64,000 bases of DNA from contig JAJEIP010000137.1 in assembly GCA_022827885.1 (NCBI GenBank), positions 62,001 to 126,000 on the forward strand, read 5' to 3'. Source of the stretch: Candidatus Poribacteria bacterium (GTDB taxonomy: Bacteria; Poribacteria; WGA-4E; WGA-3G). A program made the translations under genes and the position numbers. A model generated the notes under the pieces. That model was not told the origin of the DNA and searched no databases. It worked only from the letters and a program-made list of their open reading frames with translations. Shown piece by piece: positions 7,754 through 51,356 of the stretch. How positions within the stretch are numbered: the first letter of the stretch is position 1; every line of letters starts with the position of its first letter.

Positions 7754-7790
7754 ATTTTTAATTTTCCTTGCGGAGAAACAAGGCGGGTCA
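7754..7790 (-). repeat. Dispersed leader repeat end upstream of ABC ATPase start
   Basis: Read on minus, CCGCAAGGAAAATTAAAAAT runs straight into the ATG at 7753, and GGCGGATATAAG-like sequence lies further upstream. AAGGA serves as the Shine-Dalgarno. The rest of the 213-bp gap to 7967 holds a second degenerate end (CCGCAAGGAAAAATT, 7925..7940) and an AACTG..GGCAACC word, with no gene. Confidence 0.75.
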
Positions 7791-8776: not shown

Positions 8777-10185
8777 AACGCCTTTGCAACCTGTGTAGCC
8801 GTCTCGACGATCCACGCCTGTTCTCTTTCATAAACTGTCCGCAGATCCAACCAGAAAAGACCCTCCTTGATTCTACCGATGATGGGGATTGTAGCGTTTC
8901 GGAACTGCGCAGCGAGCATTTCAGCGGAAACCTCCGAGGGTTCAAGGACAAGGGCGATACTCGGTAACGTCTCGACAGGAAGTGCCCCACTCCCGATCTG
9001 CCCATAGGTTTCGGAGACCTGAATATCCACTTTTTCTCCGAAGCGGGATTCTAACGCCGCTTTGAGCTCGGCTGCAAGGGTGTGGAGTGTCTCCATGGGT
9101 CGGGTATAGCGGTTGAGCATCGGAAACCGTTCCGTTAGGGTGTCGTCCGCTGTGAGATAGAGTTGCAACGTCGCTGACAAGCCAGCAATGATAAGTTTAT
9201 CGACTCGGAGTGCCCGCATCATCGGATTTTTACGCATCTTCTCGACCCATTCCGCTTTACCGACGATAATTCCGGCTTGGGGTCCACCGAGTAGCTTATC
9301 CCCGCTAAAGGTGACAATATCGACACCGCTGGCGATGCGTTCTCCGACGAGAGGTTCATGCGGGAGCCCATAAGTCGTCATGTCAATGAGCGCACCGCTC
9401 CCAAGGTCTTCCATCGTTGGGATGCCGTGCTGCGTCCCGAGTTCCGTCAGTTCTTCCATTGAAGGCGTTGACGTGAAACCGAGGATTTTGTAGTTGCTCG
9501 GATGCACCTTGAGTAAAAGTCCTGTGTTTTCATTGATAGCTTCGGCGTAATCTCGGAGATGGGTTCGGTTAGTAGTGCCGACTTCTCGGAGGATCGCACC
9601 ACTTGCCGCCATCACGTCAGGCACTCGAAATGCGCCACCGATTTCGATGAGTTCTCCACGCGAGACGATGACCTCTTTACCATGCGCCATCGTCTGAAGT
9701 GCGAGTAGAACCGCCGCGGCGTTATTGTTGACGACTGTGGATGCCTCGCAGCCGGTCAATTGCTGTAGGAGCGGTTCGGTGATCCTATCCCGATGCCCGC
9801 GTCTGCCTGTTGCGATGTCGTATTCGAGGTTGACGTAATTTTGTGCGGCTTGCTGGATGGCTTCACAGGTAGCCGTGCTTAACAGCGATCTGCCTAAGTT
9901 GGTGTGTGTAACCGTGCCTGTTGCGTTGACGACGGGACGCATACGCTCGCCTATCTTTTCCAGAATTTTCTGATGTGTCCGCTCGGCGTATTCCGCGTGT
10001 TCTGGGAGTTGCGTCTGGTTTCCGCTCAGGATGTCGTTTCGGATGTCGGCGACGACGGCGCGGAGTGCTTCCGTCACAACGGAACGCGCGTAGGTGGCTT
10101 GCAAGTCGAGCATTTCCTGCGTGTTCAGGAGTTTTTCGATGGCGGGCAGGTGCCGTAGAAGGTTTTTATGTGTGTTTGCGTTCAA
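8773..10185 (-). CDS. selA: L-seryl-tRNA(Sec) selenium transferase
   Basis: 470 residues using a TTG start at 10185 (GGAGA 6 bp upstream). This start fits the family's usual length (about 460) and first residues (NANTHKNLLRHLPAIEKLL), and it lies downstream of a strong promoter; a frame extended to the ATG at 10293 would begin upstream of that promoter. PLP fold-type I enzyme converting Ser-tRNA(Sec) to Sec-tRNA(Sec) with selenophosphate. Family motifs include VNATGTVTHTNLGRSLLS, ASTVVNNNAAAVLLAL, VSRGELIEIGGAFR and the PLP-lysine segment TFSGDKLLGGPQAGII. selB, selD and tRNA-Sec are not in the window. The likely Sec user in the window is the frame at 32266..32610. Confidence 0.93.
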   Translation of the reverse strand: MNANTHKNLLRHLPAIEKLLNTQEMLDLQATYARSVVTEALRAVVADIRNDILSGNQTQLPEHAEYAERTHQKILEKIGERMRPVVNATGTVTHTNLGRSLLSTATCEAIQQAAQNYVNLEYDIATGRRGHRDRITEPLLQQLTGCEASTVVNNNAAAVLLALQTMAHGKEVIVSRGELIEIGGAFRVPDVMAASGAILREVGTTNRTHLRDYAEAINENTGLLLKVHPSNYKILGFTSTPSMEELTELGTQHGIPTMEDLGSGALIDMTTYGLPHEPLVGERIASGVDIVTFSGDKLLGGPQAGIIVGKAEWVEKMRKNPMMRALRVDKLIIAGLSATLQLYLTADDTLTERFPMLNRYTRPMETLHTLAAELKAALESRFGEKVDIQVSETYGQIGSGALPVETLPSIALVLEPSEVSAEMLAAQFRNATIPIIGRIKEGLFWLDLRTVYEREQAWIVETATQVAKAL

Positions 10186-15049: not shown

Positions 15050-15141
15050 CAGCCGTAAGCGCAACTAACGGGCGCGCTGGATATACGCCGAGGATCGTTA
15101 TTCATTTAACCCGCCTCACCGATCCGCAAGGAAAAATTAAA
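15050..15141 (+). repeat. Dispersed leader repeat, full copy
   Basis: It contains GGATATACGCCGAGGATCG (also found in the copy at 6589, one base different) and ends CGATCCGCAAGGAAAAATT followed by AAAG. It sits at the 3' end of the opposing FAH-family gene, and its TTA (15137..15139) is that gene's stop codon. The hairpin end is degenerate here. Confidence 0.8.
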
Positions 15142-30422: not shown

Positions 30423-31166
30423 ATGAAAGCCTATACATGGTCCACTACTCTAATTATCATGCTGATGTTGTGTGTCGGCATCAGTTATGCTGAGGTTTTG
30501 TTTCATGACGACTTTGAGCGTTCCGAAATTGATCTCGACAGATGGGCACCGCAAGTGAGTTGGGGTATTAAAGACCATGACACCCGACACGATGTGCTTG
30601 GAAGGAGAGTGCTTGACGTATGGGGCGGTGGTGCTGGGCTCAGTCTCACCGATCTTCCCGAAGAATTTGATTACTACGCCGATTTCAATGCCAAAAATGG
30701 CGGTTCATTGGGATTTGTTTTCCACGCGAAGGATGACGATAACTTCTACATGCACGAAATTTCAATCCTCGGTTCTAAACACCCACCGCAACATATCGGA
30801 TGGCACCGAAAAGAAGGTGGCGCGTGGGATTTTGAAGTAAGTCGTTTCGCGGACGAGAAAAAACGTAAACAGAACATTTGGTATCGCGTGAAGTTTGAAG
30901 TTCGCGAAAATTCCGAATTTAAGGTATACCTCGGTAAGGTCGGTGCTAAATGGAATAATCTCGTTTTTATCGGAGAATGGACCGATGGTGAAAAGAAGTT
31001 TGAAAACGGCAAAACTGGCTTCTATACGCGCGGCGGCAATCGGGGTGCTGCTGCGCATTACGCACAATTTGATAACATTTTCGTTACTACCCCAGGCTTC
31101 AACATCTTTCCCGTTGAGCCGAAAGGGAAACTCGCAGTAACGTGGGGAAACCTCAAGATACAATGA
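30423..31166 (+). CDS. Secreted DUF1080-like protein with LAVTWG C-terminal tail
   Basis: 247 residues from the ATG at 30423, where the signal peptide MKAYTWSTTLIIMLMLCVGI begins (GGGAGG lies about 13 bp upstream). The DUF1080/3-keto-disaccharide-hydrolase-like beta-sandwich shows VLFHDDFERSEIDLDRW, GSLGFVFHAKDDDNFYM, RYRVKFEV-like WYRVKFEVRENSEFKVYL and GKTGFYTRGG..AQFDNIFV. Tail: VEPKGKLAVTWGNLKIQ. Its TGA stop overlaps the ATG of the next Gfo/Idh gene (ATGA), so the secreted protein and oxidoreductase are made together, as at 1382/1365. Confidence 0.87.
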   Translation: MKAYTWSTTLIIMLMLCVGISYAEVLFHDDFERSEIDLDRWAPQVSWGIKDHDTRHDVLGRRVLDVWGGGAGLSLTDLPEEFDYYADFNAKNGGSLGFVFHAKDDDNFYMHEISILGSKHPPQHIGWHRKEGGAWDFEVSRFADEKKRKQNIWYRVKFEVRENSEFKVYLGKVGAKWNNLVFIGEWTDGEKKFENGKTGFYTRGGNRGAAAHYAQFDNIFVTTPGFNIFPVEPKGKLAVTWGNLKIQ

Positions 31167-32170
31167 ACGTTCAAAAACCGTTAGCAATAGGCATCATCGG
31201 TGCTGGCAATATGGGAAGACATCATCAGGGGGCGATAACCAATTACGGTGCGCAGGTTGTTGCCGTCCATGATGCAAGACTTGAGGCGGCGCGCGAACTC
31301 GCAGCGCATACCGAATCAGCACTTGCCACGACCGCGTTGGCTGCCTTTTTCGATGTAGACATGGACGGCGTGGTTATCACGACACCCCCTCCTATCCGAC
31401 TTGAACCGATCCAAATGGCATGCGACCGCGGTATCCCTGTGATGGTTGAAAAACCGCCCGCCTTGAACATGGCTGAAGGCAGAAAATGCCTCGCATGCAT
31501 TGAGAAAGCGGATGTCATTGCTGCGGTTGGGTTCCAACTCCGCTATCATCCACTCTATGAACGGCTGAAAGCATTGATCTCTTCGGAAACGGTGCATCTT
31601 GTGCGAACGGTGTGTACCGTTAATTATTACCTGAGTTTCCGGATGTCGCCTTGGTTTTTACAATATGATATAAGCGGGGGTCCCTTGCCGGAACAGGCGG
31701 TGCACGTGTTGGATTGTGCACGTTTTGTGATGGGAAATCCGAAACCTGTGCAGGCACATGCCCTCGCCGCTAAAAACATGGCGTTGGAACGCACCGAATT
31801 CGATGCCGAAAATGCCATTCAGATGACCTATCAACTGGACAACGGCGTTTTCGGAACACACATGAATCACTGTGGCACCGAGGGGTTTAGTTTTGAGGTT
31901 GAAGTCGTCGGACCCCATCTGCGATTACAAGCGAAGATGACGGATAACGTTATCTGTGGATACCTTAACGGTGAGGCCGTCAACGAATCAGGGACTTCCG
32001 AAAACAGTCTGGGTTTAGACAAATCCGGAGCGTGGTTGCGTGCCATTGAAACAGGCGATAGAACGCTCATTCGTTCGCCATTCGCGGATGCAATTGAGAC
32101 CCTTGCCCTGATTGATGCCGCGGTCCAAAGTCGGGGCACCGGCAGATTTATTAACGTTGAGGACCTGTAA
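31163..32170 (+). CDS. Gfo/Idh/MocA family oxidoreductase
   Basis: 335 residues from the ATG at 31163, overlapping the previous stop by ATGA. Rossmann motif AIGIIGAGNMGRHH, VITTPPPIRL, catalytic-lysine motif VMVEKPPALNMAEGRK (EKP) and substrate-domain segments GPLPEQAVHVLDCARFVMG (with the conserved His of the family) and FGTHMNHCGTEGFSFEVEVV. NAD(P)-dependent sugar or polyol dehydrogenase; substrate unknown. It is translationally coupled to a secreted glycan-binding-type protein, suggesting a carbohydrate unit. Confidence 0.9.
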   Translation: MNVQKPLAIGIIGAGNMGRHHQGAITNYGAQVVAVHDARLEAARELAAHTESALATTALAAFFDVDMDGVVITTPPPIRLEPIQMACDRGIPVMVEKPPALNMAEGRKCLACIEKADVIAAVGFQLRYHPLYERLKALISSETVHLVRTVCTVNYYLSFRMSPWFLQYDISGGPLPEQAVHVLDCARFVMGNPKPVQAHALAAKNMALERTEFDAENAIQMTYQLDNGVFGTHMNHCGTEGFSFEVEVVGPHLRLQAKMTDNVICGYLNGEAVNESGTSENSLGLDKSGAWLRAIETGDRTLIRSPFADAIETLALIDAAVQSRGTGRFINVEDL

Positions 32171-32180
32171 TTTAATTGTA

Positions 32181-32265
32181 GCCTGCAACATCGGTGCAGG
32201 CGGGACTACGGGAAGGAACACTATCTCCCCAAGGTCCTAATCGAACCGCAAGGAATAATTAAAAA
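32181..32265 (+). repeat. Dispersed leader repeat, full copy at the selenoprotein start
   Basis: It starts GCCTGCAACATCGGTGCAGGC (hairpin) and ends CGAACCGCAAGGAATAATT plus AAAAA directly before the ATG at 32266. AAGGA is the Shine-Dalgarno of the TGA-containing frame, so translation of that frame starts at the repeat edge. Confidence 0.85.
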
Positions 32266-32610
32266 ATGATAGATTGGATTTATTCTCGGAGTAGCTGAAA
32301 CTCCTGTAAAAAAGTTCAAGAGTTTCTTGACGAACACGGATTACAAATAGAAAGTCGGACGGATGCCCGAAAAGAGCGAATGGATGCAACAGCGGTCTGG
32401 GATTTAATGGGCAGCGCGGCGCAAATCATTGTTGCGAAAGGGCAGCGCGTGGAAACCTTTGTGCCAACCGCAGACACACAGGAACCAATCCTGAAAGCCG
32501 TGATGGGACGGAGCGGTAGCCTGCGCGCGCCTACAGTGCGAAGTGGGGATAGTTTCTTTGTCGGATTTAACAACGCGCTCTATGCGCAGATAATGCCACC
32601 TGCACCCTGA
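32266..32610 (+). CDS. ArsC/Spx-like thioredoxin-fold protein, in-frame TGA read as selenocysteine (candidate)
   Basis: 114 residues if the TGA at 32296..32298 is read as Sec (U). AAGGA lies 11 bp before the ATG. MIDWIYSRSSU-NSCKKVQEFL puts U at residue 11, where ArsC/Spx proteins have their catalytic Cys (their CxxC or CxTS position), with a resolving Cys three residues on: UxxC. The rest follows the ArsC/Spx fold: ERMDATAVWDLM, cis-Pro region SGSLRAPTVRSGDSFFVGF, then NNALYAQI. Directly after the TGA, GAAACTC (32297..32303) pairs with GAGTTTC (32320..32326) around a loop holding GT, as in a bacterial SECIS. A pseudogene with a Cys-to-stop change is the alternative, but the remaining frame is intact and conserved-looking, and selA is in the window. 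Predicted redox enzyme (arsenate-reductase-like or thiol oxidoreductase). Confidence 0.75.
32297..32326 (+). promoter_or_regulatory. Candidate bacterial SECIS stem-loop
   Basis: The 7-bp stem GAAACTC/GAGTTTC starts within the TGA codon, with a 16-nt loop in which TG (32305..32306) can pair with CA (32317..32318). The loop G of GTT (32314) lies 16 nt after the TGA, inside the range usual for SelB-binding elements (about 16-37). It also encodes protein. Confidence 0.6.
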
Positions 32611-32630
32611 AACGTGTAGAGTAAGGTCGT

Positions 32631-32709
32631 CTCGCCGCTACAGAGCGGATATACGGAGAAGTCCTTCAAATGTTGAACTCACCTGATCGAACCGCAAGGA
32701 AAATTAAAA
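32631..32709 (+). repeat. Dispersed leader repeat, tandem copy 1
   Basis: Shares CGGATATACGGAGAAGTCCT, the segment TTGAACTCACCTGATCGAAC and the end CCGCAAGGAAAATTAAAA with copy 2 at 32753; differences are few. It opens a 22-codon frame with no likely product. The 177-bp region 32611..32787 is essentially these two copies. Confidence 0.85.
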
Positions 32710-32752
32710 GTATTTGCAGAGGCGTGTTCTTTTCATGATTGTAGCCTGCAAC

Positions 32753-32828
32753 AGCGGCGCAGGCGGATATACGGAGAAGTCCTTCACATGCTGAACTCAC
32801 CTGACCGAACCGCAAGGAAAATTAAAAA
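32753..32828 (+). repeat. Dispersed leader repeat, tandem copy 2 at the epimerase start
   Basis: It begins GCCTGCAACAGCGGCGCAGGC and ends CCGCAAGGAAAATTAAAAA at the edge of the epimerase coding sequence. The ATG at 32788 used for the epimerase lies inside the repeat. Confidence 0.85.
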
Positions 32829-33579
32829 GATTTTGATTACGGGTGCGAATGGGTATCTGGCACAATTTGTTATTGATCGGTTGTGTGGTGCGTATGACCT
32901 CACGCTCACGGATATCGTTGAATTGGATCGGACGGTTTCAGGCACAACTTTTATCAAGGCAGATGTGACAAATGCTGCCGAAATTCAGGCAGTGTGTGCG
33001 GATCAAGATGCTGTCGTCCATCTCGTTGCGCTGGTCCGGGGACGGTCTGATAAACCCGCCTCACTGTTTGCGGATGTTATGGTGAAAGGGACATGGAACG
33101 TCGCGGAAGCCTGTGTAAAGCAGGGCGTTAAAAAGTTGGTTAACATCTCAAGTATTTCGGCATGCCCGCCTGCGCCAAGCGCACAATTGCCTTACGAGGT
33201 GGACGATGACTTCCAGTTCGGTCCGGGAGATCTTTACTACGCGTTGGCGAAGTACCTCGGCGAGCGAATCGGTGCGGCGTATCATCAAGCCTACGGGTTA
33301 GACGTGATCCATGTCCGCCCGGGGGTGATAGATGGAGATGGACAGAATCCGGGACCTGCAGCGCCTGAAATTGTGACGGATCCTTGGTTCGTTTACGTGG
33401 ATCCGAGGGATGTCGCACAGTGTGTCGCACGCGCCATTGAAACAGAGACGGTGAAGTATGGCGCGTATAACGCCGTCGCCGGTCGCGCGGATTCCCGTTT
33501 CGCGTGGCGACCCGCAGAGACGGATTTAGGGTATTCACCGGAACACAATTGGCCCGAGATCCCTGGCGATGATACGTAG
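32788..33579 (+). CDS. NAD-dependent epimerase/dehydratase family protein
   Basis: 263 residues. Extended-SDR fold: KILITGANGYLAQFVIDRL gives the NAD motif, VVHLVALVRGR the second strand, SSISACPPAP the Ser region, and YYALAKYLGERI the catalytic YxxxK. It lacks the longer C-terminal domain, being short for the family (about 300-340), so it resembles atypical extended SDRs. Substrate unknown, probably a nucleotide sugar. The ATG at 32788 lies within a repeat; the conserved part begins at KILITG, where an ATT (32830) or TTG (32833) lies at the spacing from AAGGA used by other repeat-led genes, so the true start may be non-ATG. Convergent with the FG-GAP gene. Confidence 0.82.
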   Translation: MLNSPDRTARKIKKILITGANGYLAQFVIDRLCGAYDLTLTDIVELDRTVSGTTFIKADVTNAAEIQAVCADQDAVVHLVALVRGRSDKPASLFADVMVKGTWNVAEACVKQGVKKLVNISSISACPPAPSAQLPYEVDDDFQFGPGDLYYALAKYLGERIGAAYHQAYGLDVIHVRPGVIDGDGQNPGPAAPEIVTDPWFVYVDPRDVAQCVARAIETETVKYGAYNAVAGRADSRFAWRPAETDLGYSPEHNWPEIPGDDT

Positions 33580-44810: not shown

Positions 44811-46019
44811 TCAATTAATTGAAAAAATCGACTTGGCAATGGCATCGCTGGCGTCCGGTTTGCCAAGTGCTCGACTTGCGGTTACCATCCGTTCGCGTGT
44901 ATTTCCGTCCAGGGTCATATTCGTTAGGTTTTTCACTAATGTCTCTACTGTGAAAGTGCCTTGTTCAAGGACAACAGCCGCCCCGGCTTCTGCCACGGTG
45001 TGAGCGTTTAAGACTTGGTTGTTTCCGGTTTGCGAAGGTAAGGGTATGAAGATTGCGGGGATACCGCATGCAGTAACCTCGGCAATAGTCATTCCTCCTG
45101 CTCTGCACACCATAACGTCTGCGATGCTATAGATTTCCTCAACAGTATCGAAAAAAGGTTTAACACAGTATAGGAATCCCGAAGCGAGTATCTGATCATA
45201 CAAGTTTTGAACCTTTTCTACTTCCATAGCGCCCGTTTGATGAACTATCTGGATCTGATCGGCATGTTCGACTAAGTGTGGCAACGCGGCTACCATTGTT
45301 TCATTGATCGCATGGGCACCCTGACTTCCACCCATCACAAAGATCGTTTTCCGATCTGGGTGCAACCCGAATTTTCTATAGGTTTCTTCGCACCTCGGGA
45401 ATGCAGCGATTGCTGGACGAATCGGATTTCCTGTTATCTCTATACGTGTGGTTTGTCGAAACGCATTACTCACGCGAACTGATTCCATAGCAAGGTAGGC
45501 GACATCTGCCCATCGTGCCAATATACCGTTTGTTAAGCCGACAGAAGCATTCTGTTCTTGGATAGCAATCGGAATCTGGCACAGAAGACCCGCTAACAGA
45601 ACCGGACCTGAAACATATCCGCCCGTTCCTATAACGATGTCTGGTTTCAACGCCTTCATATATCGCAATGACTGAATAAGTCCATGAAACGTCTTCCAAA
45701 GAGTTGGCAGCCACTGTAAAGTAAGCCGACGCGGAAACCCTGCAGCCGAAATAGGCAAGAAACGGAAGCCGTGTTGTGGGATAAGCGTTGCTTCCAACTT
45801 GTCCGAACCCCCAATGAACGCGATGTCTACGGTGGCATCCAAGCGTTGGAGTGCCTGAGCAATACCGATAGCCGGATAGATGTGCCCACCTGTCCCGCCC
45901 CCCGCGATAACGATTTTTTTCTGGGTCACATGCCGTTGCGGTGCCAATAAACTGCGGTCCTCGGTTTCTGATATTTTTAATTTTTCTTGCGATTCGATGA
46001 GATGTGTCTGGGATTTCAT
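44811..46019 (-). CDS. murG: Lipid II synthase MurG (UDP-GlcNAc transferase)
   Basis: 402 residues as drawn. The GT-B N-domain begins KKIVIAGGGTGGHIYPAIGI at residue 33, with QEQNASVGLTNGILARWADV and MGGSQGAHAIN. The UDP-sugar region VMVCRAGGMTIAEVTACGIP is intact. The 30 residues before KKIVIA are unusual for MurG; DNA encoding ESQEKLKIS matches the CGCAAGAAAAATTAAAAAT leader repeat in degenerate form. The true start may be the GTG at 45929 (VTQKKIVIAGG), giving 372 residues. It transfers GlcNAc to lipid I at the inner membrane face. Confidence 0.93.
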   Translation of the reverse strand: MKSQTHLIESQEKLKISETEDRSLLAPQRHVTQKKIVIAGGGTGGHIYPAIGIAQALQRLDATVDIAFIGGSDKLEATLIPQHGFRFLPISAAGFPRRLTLQWLPTLWKTFHGLIQSLRYMKALKPDIVIGTGGYVSGPVLLAGLLCQIPIAIQEQNASVGLTNGILARWADVAYLAMESVRVSNAFRQTTRIEITGNPIRPAIAAFPRCEETYRKFGLHPDRKTIFVMGGSQGAHAINETMVAALPHLVEHADQIQIVHQTGAMEVEKVQNLYDQILASGFLYCVKPFFDTVEEIYSIADVMVCRAGGMTIAEVTACGIPAIFIPLPSQTGNNQVLNAHTVAEAGAAVVLEQGTFTVETLVKNLTNMTLDGNTRERMVTASRALGKPDASDAIAKSIFSIN

Positions 46020-50107: not shown

Positions 50108-51334
50108 TTACAGCGTGCCTCCTAACTTGTCACCTTTCTTCAATTTGGCAAAGCTCGCCCCTGCTTGGCTTAGGAGGTTCGTCGTATATGTATAGGTTAA
50201 CGCATTTTTCTCTGCGTGTACCGTTAGTGCTAAATCGATGAGATCTGATACGAGTTGCGGAAACGCAATGCCTTGATGCGTCCACAAGTAGTAACTATAT
50301 GATCCCGGAATGGTGTTGATTTCATTCACGTAAACGTTCTCGTTTGCATCTATGAGAAAATCGATACGTGCGACACCCGCGCAATCTAAAACCTGAAAGG
50401 TCTGTATTGCCAGATTTTGTATATGTAACGTCAATTTTTCTGAAATGGGTGCAGGAATTTTTCTGTCTGCACCTGCCATTCCTGAAGATTCACCATTTTG
50501 ATGGATGTATTTGTCGTCAAAACTGAGAAAGTTGGTTCCCTGTGTCACAGGCTGCTCGCAAACAGACGGGGTTGGGTCATCTGTGCCCATTACAGCACAG
50601 TTGATTTCGAGTGGATTCTCGACCGCTTTCTCGACGAGAATCCTGCGCGAATAATGCCCCGCAACTTCCGCAGCAGCGCAAAGTTCATCTCGATTTTTAA
50701 CATGGCTGACCCCAATACTTGAGCCGCTCATCGCAGGTTTCACAAACAGTGGATAAGACAGTGATGTTTCTACCCTTTTGATGAGTTCGCCACGGCGCGT
50801 TTCCCAATCATGATGGGTCCAACATAAATACGGGAGTATTGGCAGCCCGTTTTCGCTGAGAATCGCCTTCATCATGATTTTATCCATACCGACAGCAGCA
50901 CCGACAACTCGCGCGCCAACGTAAGGCAGATTCATCAGTTCAAGTAGACCTTGAAGCGTTCCATCTTCGCCGTGCATACCGTGTATTGATGGAAACACGA
51001 CATCTACCGGAAGGACCGTTCTTTTCTGAATGTTTTGACCGAGCCAATGTTTTGCGGTAACAACAAATTGCGGGTTCGGATGAAATTCAACGCTGACTTT
51101 GTCGAAGTCGGTTGGATGTGGCAGATTTCCATCGGTAAAGGTGGACAAATCGCGAAGGGCATCCCCGGTTAACCACTCGCCATTTTTTGTGACATAAATC
51201 GGGATAACGTGATGCCCGCCCGATTCACCACTGAGGTCTTGTAGGGCAAGGCAAACCTGATGGGCGGTTACGATTGAGACTTCATGTTCAGGTGTGCATC
51301 CGCCAAATATAACGGCTACATTGTATTTTGACAT
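50108..51334 (-). CDS. ddl: D-alanine--D-alanine ligase
   Basis: 408 residues. N-terminal VAVIFGGCTPEHEVSIVTA, the ATP-grasp segments (SIHGMHGEDGTLQGLLEL, FVKPAMSGSSIGVSHV) and INEINTIPGSYSYYLW with the metal-binding Asn/Glu. It is longer than E. coli Ddl and ends in a helical tail of about 40 residues. The position between murF and mraY is unusual; ddl more often lies after murB near ftsQ. AAGGAAAAATTAA directly before the ATG comes from a dispersed repeat end. Confidence 0.92.
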   Translation of the reverse strand: MSKYNVAVIFGGCTPEHEVSIVTAHQVCLALQDLSGESGGHHVIPIYVTKNGEWLTGDALRDLSTFTDGNLPHPTDFDKVSVEFHPNPQFVVTAKHWLGQNIQKRTVLPVDVVFPSIHGMHGEDGTLQGLLELMNLPYVGARVVGAAVGMDKIMMKAILSENGLPILPYLCWTHHDWETRRGELIKRVETSLSYPLFVKPAMSGSSIGVSHVKNRDELCAAAEVAGHYSRRILVEKAVENPLEINCAVMGTDDPTPSVCEQPVTQGTNFLSFDDKYIHQNGESSGMAGADRKIPAPISEKLTLHIQNLAIQTFQVLDCAGVARIDFLIDANENVYVNEINTIPGSYSYYLWTHQGIAFPQLVSDLIDLALTVHAEKNALTYTYTTNLLSQAGASFAKLKKGDKLGGTL

Positions 51335-51356
51335 TTAATTTTTCCTTGCGGTTCGG
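51335..51356 (-). repeat. Dispersed leader repeat end upstream of ddl
   Basis: Read on minus, CGAACCGCAAGGAAAAATTA then A and ATG. AAGGA is the ddl Shine-Dalgarno. CTGACCGAACCGC matches the copy at 32753. Confidence 0.8.

Follow-up and report, generated by a model that had tools for sequence, protein, structure and literature searches.

Does a poribacterial ArsC/Spx-like frame contain a selenocysteine codon?

The window, a stretch of 64,000 nucleotides from a Candidatus Poribacteria genome of 5.1 Mb, contains a small ArsC/Spx-like reading frame that is interrupted by a TGA near its start. Is this TGA a stop, or is it the codon for selenocysteine (Sec)? The frame starts with ATG at 32266 and reads MIDWIYSRSS-U-NSCKKVQEFL, in which U stands for the TGA at 32296-32298; 103 sense codons follow before the frame ends with a TGA at 32608-32610. 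A first-pass annotation had described exactly this frame, and had noted correctly that ordinary ORF calling loses the N-terminal part and keeps 32380-32610 only. From the base composition, the chance of 102 open codons is about 0.8%, and the open frame alone is weak evidence. However, translated with Sec, the protein matches the NCBIfam model NF041106, "ArsC family (seleno)protein", over its full length (profile 1-107 of 107) with 121.7 bits at a cut-off of 85, a cut-off that was passed by all 28 aligned members (E <= 1e-5). This match and the TGA in 75 of 75 matching genomes settle that the frame is genuine. The TGA at 32296-32298 is almost certainly read as Sec: the earlier proposal of a selenoprotein is borne out by the family match, the conserved TGA, a complete Sec machinery and a conserved hairpin. 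The features are compiled in Table 1.

Table 1. Positions in the window of the predicted selenoprotein gene and of the features discussed with it
Feature	Position	Strand	Evidence
ArsC/Spx-like predicted selenoprotein gene, 114 residues, Sec11, U-x-x-C	32266..32610	+	NF041106, 121.7 bits; homologues in 75 genomes
In-frame TGA, almost certainly Sec codon 11	32296..32298	+	TGA at the identical codon in 91/91 translated loci; Cys in L147
Putative SECIS hairpin	32314..32331	+	core CAAGA 32317-32321, loop GUU 32322-32324, UCUUG 32325-32329
Dispersed repeat copy with Shine-Dalgarno AAGGA	32242..32263	+	repeat search
Further repeat copies	32688-32709, 32806-32827, 51334-51355, 7756-7776, 15120-15141, 45975-45995		
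Gfo/Idh/MocA oxidoreductase	31142..32170	+	Pfam; upstream neighbour, conserved among genomes of the same family
NAD-dependent epimerase	32788..33579	+	Pfam; downstream neighbour, conserved among genomes of the same family
selA, L-seryl-tRNA(Sec) selenium transferase	8800..10158	-	TIGR00474, 601 bits; PF03841

Conservation of the TGA

With the window protein as query, 194 genomes were searched and a homologue was found in 75, each match with exactly one in-frame TGA. These genomes comprise 71 of the 73 of the same order, none of the 12 others of the class and phylum, and four from other phyla or lineages. Plain ORF calling shortens this conserved redox gene throughout the order, whose members are uncultured bacteria associated with sponges. 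A profile search in the phylum of one of the distant matches revealed a member in 60 of 95 genomes, nearly all of them with the TGA.

The first-pass annotation had placed the TGA at the catalytic Cys of the family, leaving a UxxC motif; the position and the motif were confirmed. U11 and C14 are invariant, and the one clear natural Cys form in the wider sample, L147 (136 bits to NF041106), has CNTC aligned there. Its genome (99% complete, one contig) has neither SelB (best 166 vs 242 bits) nor tRNA-Sec (best 45.3 vs 47 bits) over the cut-off. It should be mentioned that one TGA-bearing genome with a fragmented assembly, G109, also gave no tRNA-Sec over the cut-off (43.1 bits); SelB is present there with 313.8 bits. 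Cys forms of the NF041106-type family look rare among the sampled genomes, which makes the family a clean case for studying why Sec is kept.

Comparison of the homologues revealed that changes downstream of the TGA are mostly at third codon positions; the remaining frame is conserved and has not decayed. One poribacterial copy, L098, retains TGA and hairpin and its frame ends after about half of the protein; either this copy is decaying or the assembly is wrong there.

The ArsC-like proteins L139-L143, L145, L146 and L153 form a sister group. It has a TGA at the same site, in the motifs UPTC, UPGC or UPSC, and USGC in L153, and shares the hairpin, often as CGAGGGA-GUU-UCUCUCG. Three scanned or typical proteins of this group reached 54-58 bits to NF041106 (cut-off 85) and passed no other NCBIfam cut-off; by sequence, the group is possibly an unnamed selenoprotein subfamily. 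Its relatives L137 and L138 have CDCPSS instead of UPTC and no stop; apparently, the Sec site was replaced and the motif shifted.

The machinery for Sec decoding

As noted in the first pass, selA lies 22 kb from the gene. The other components that were to be looked for, selB, selD and tRNA-Sec, are all present in the genome: selB at C136:16392-18287, with tRNA-Sec about 60 nt downstream, and selD (L102) at G000:C144:60983-61906. The latter carries one in-frame TGA, and the SelD of this genome is therefore probably a selenoprotein itself. In a study of sponge symbionts, SelA is reported together with SelB for the majority of the bins (PMC5649159).

A putative SECIS hairpin

Which structure in the mRNA could direct Sec insertion? 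The published model of the bacterial SECIS has a loop of 3-9 nt with G in its first two positions, located 16-37 nt after the UGA, a stem of 4-16 bp and a minimum free energy of <= -7.5 kcal/mol. The hairpin CAAGA-GUU-UCUUG (32317-32329) fits this model in loop, stem and spacing, with a GUU loop that starts with G 23 nt after the UGA and a stem of 5-6 bp; the free energy of the 51 nt after the UGA is modest and borderline, with -6.6 kcal/mol vs the criterion of -7.5. Below the core, U32316 pairs with A32330 and, past a bulged U, G32314 with C32331. Most poribacterial copies extend the stem at its base, past a bulged A, by the pairs GUG/CAC or GCG/CGC; for the window copy, the bulged U is the better reading.

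Conservation of the pairs was compared with random draws of synonymous recoding of the same proteins; the draws treat codons as independent and do not model the tree, and exact probabilities are not claimed. In a set of 70 distinct sequences, of which five do not belong to the order, the core pairs of CAAGA/UCUUG are kept to 96.6%, compared with a mean of 73.5% and a maximum of 79.4% in 1000 draws. Outside the order (36 distinct sequences), the 7-bp form of the hairpin keeps 93.7% (null 66.7%, maximum 74.2%), the loop starts with G in 36/36, and the stem covaries by two-sided changes such as C-G to A-U or A-U to G-C or C-G. The Cys homologue L147 keeps only 2 of 7 pairs and the hairpin is absent. 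In this large alignment, a bacterial SECIS can be recognised from conservation and covariation, and not from energy alone. Within 32200-32900, Rfam gave no match.

The first-pass annotation had proposed another stem, GAAACTC/GAGTTTC, as the SECIS. This pairing is indeed possible: when the 61-mer is folded in isolation, it gives the lowest energy, although not better than that of shuffled sequences (z -0.29), and the fold that includes the UGA reaches -8.5 kcal/mol, but in this competing stem. However, its first two bases are inside the UGA, and it is mutually exclusive with the CAAGA/UCUUG hairpin. Its pairs are kept to 85.9% in the 70 distinct sequences (null 62.1%), that is, 86% vs 97% for CAAGA/UCUUG; that it stays above its own null is partly because it shares nucleotides with that hairpin. 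Outside the order, 61.5% of the pairs are kept vs 57.3% in the null (36 distinct sequences). Less conserved, overlapping the UGA and near the null in other phyla, this stem was rejected as the SECIS. From the pattern of sequence conservation, the predicted SECIS is the CAAGA-GUU-UCUUG hairpin rather than GAAACTC/GAGTTTC.

Could the TGA have another meaning?

It could be argued that the TGA is a nonsense codon in a Cys gene, that is, a pseudogene or a sequencing or assembly error, and that only the fragment from 32380 is made; this is what plain ORF calling yields. But the identical TGA is found in 75 genomes across phyla, the sequence downstream of it is under a purifying pattern, the hairpin is conserved and the Sec machinery is complete. 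The conservation of the TGA rules this explanation out, and we consider its probability to be negligible. That the TGA is read as an amino acid other than Sec, by suppression or by a changed genetic code, is hardly more credible. The frame would be open under any sense reading of the TGA, but TGA also serves as the true stop of the same gene, the genome encodes SelB and a tRNA specific for Sec, Cys is aligned in the genome that lacks SelB and tRNA-Sec over the cut-off, and the hairpin matches the bacterial SECIS model. Reassignment of the code was rejected because of the conservation and because the gene itself ends with TGA.

Start codon and a dispersed repeat

The AAGGA of the repeat copy in front of the gene stands 11 nt before the ATG. 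The first-pass annotation had assumed that the repeat supplies both the Shine-Dalgarno sequence and the ATG. This holds for the former, but the ATG at 32266 is outside the repeat and is missing at that place from the other copies in the window. The sequence CGCAAGGA is found at the start in 19/71 loci; some others have a variant and others a different GGAGG. The start at 32266 is supported by this comparison of homologous loci.

With up to 2 mismatches allowed, 126 copies of the repeat, GAACCGCAAGGAAAATTAAAA (21 bases), were counted in the genome, and none for the reversed pattern. Copies are located just before the start at 32266, just before a 361-codon ORF at 7756 and, with the copy that ends at 32827, before a 248-codon frame; other copies have no start nearby. 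Since a start codon follows directly on several of the copies, the repeat seems to supply ribosome-binding sites. The ORF list begins the epimerase within the repeat at 32788-32832, where MLNSPDRTARKIKK is repeat sequence; a start with TTG at 32833, after the AAGGA of the repeat, is likelier.

Gene neighbourhood

The order Gfo/Idh/MocA oxidoreductase, selenoprotein gene and epimerase, all on the same strand, is found in the window and in contigs of 11 relatives. This arrangement is not found in the contigs L050-L054, which belong to more distant relatives. Distant members of the family have genes for threonyl-tRNA synthetase, a DCC1-like thiol-disulfide oxidoreductase, an ABC transporter and an HDOD protein as neighbours, which have nothing in common that points to a substrate. 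It is tempting to speculate that the near-universal single-copy Sec protein of the order, as a Spx/Grx-like redox switch or reductant, is dedicated to the sugar-dehydrogenase/epimerase cluster where its gene is conserved, and that it is decoded via a bulged SECIS that is particular to the order, but we regard this as improbable.

Fold and function

The predicted structure has a glutaredoxin-like Spx/ArsC fold (pLDDT 93). Invariant in the alignment are W4, R8, U11, C14, G59, G81, G84, L86, R87, P89 and G100, and the LRAP loop (R87-P89) is, in the model, likely the cis-Pro loop. Pfam gave PF00462 (Glutaredoxin) just above the cut-off, and PHROGs gave thioredoxin-like matches only, which are weak.

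According to our model, which builds on the sequence data and established biology, SelB and Sec-tRNA would bind the hairpin 23 nt downstream of the UGA, and UGA 11 would be decoded as Sec. The protein would then adopt the glutaredoxin-like Spx/ArsC fold with the U-x-x-C motif where helix 1 begins, and Sec11 and Cys14 may act as a redox pair in thiol-disulfide (selenenylsulfide) exchange. We are highly confident that the gene encodes a selenoprotein of 114 residues with Sec11 decoded via the hairpin, most likely a small Sec11-Cys14 thiol-disulfide oxidoreductase; fold and motif suggest the glutaredoxin/Spx type.

The sequence-profile search (E about 1e-6) and the structural comparison (TM about 0.57) both gave Spx as the best match, and U11xxC14 coincides with the CxxC redox switch of Spx. 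The protein could then be a redox sensor that binds RNA polymerase and not an oxidoreductase. However, the TM-score is only about 0.57, the Spx models are far from their cut-offs (TIGR01617, 25 vs 75.05 bits; NF009885, 19.5 vs 152), and the window protein has Ala (LRAP), as do nearly all members of the family, where Spx has the Arg beside Pro (LRRP). We therefore consider a function as sensor unlikely. Even less likely is an arsenate reductase, as which the protein might be taken from a weak match to Pfam ArsC PF03960 (0.0091) and from the term arsenate reductase-like that a review uses for the family (PMC13188914). The Pfam match is below the cut-off (16.7 vs 24 bits) and no arsenic gene was found among the neighbours examined. 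ArsC uses an Arg next to Pro (R94), and this catalytic Arg of the RP loop is replaced by the Ala of LRAP. Of the first-pass designation "ArsC/Spx-like", the fold family thus stands, with Spx as the closest solved fold, but arsenate reduction is unsupported. The most likely function remains that of a small oxidoreductase with a Sec-Cys pair.

Comparison with known systems

The kind of gene described here is already known, since NF041106 has been described as a selenoprotein family: a 2026 review includes it, as the arsenate reductase-like selenoprotein with UxxC, among its high-confidence predictions (PMC13188914), and an ArsC family with UxxC was present in the Global Ocean Sampling survey of 2008 (PMC2398784), which the review cites. 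The window gene is an additional member of this family. It agrees with it in the full-length match above the cut-off and in Sec in UxxC at the equivalent place, and nothing sets it apart; in Poribacteria, a single base usually bulges out beneath the upper stem of the putative SECIS. Spx (PDB 3ihq, 3gfk, 7f75) is the closest solved fold and has its CxxC redox motif at the matching place, but in the window protein Sec replaces the first Cys, Ala replaces the Arg beside Pro, and the Spx models stay below their cut-offs. Glutaredoxin and NrdH-redoxin (PDB 3ic4, 7c10) resemble its glutaredoxin-like N-terminal half with CxxC or UxxC, whereas the window protein is longer and has the ArsC/Spx middle segment. 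The Sec-containing arsenate reductase with UxxS, which corresponds to TIGR00014 (PMC13188914), a model absent among the NCBIfam models matched by the window protein, shares the ArsC fold family and the N-terminal catalytic Sec; the window protein has UxxC instead.
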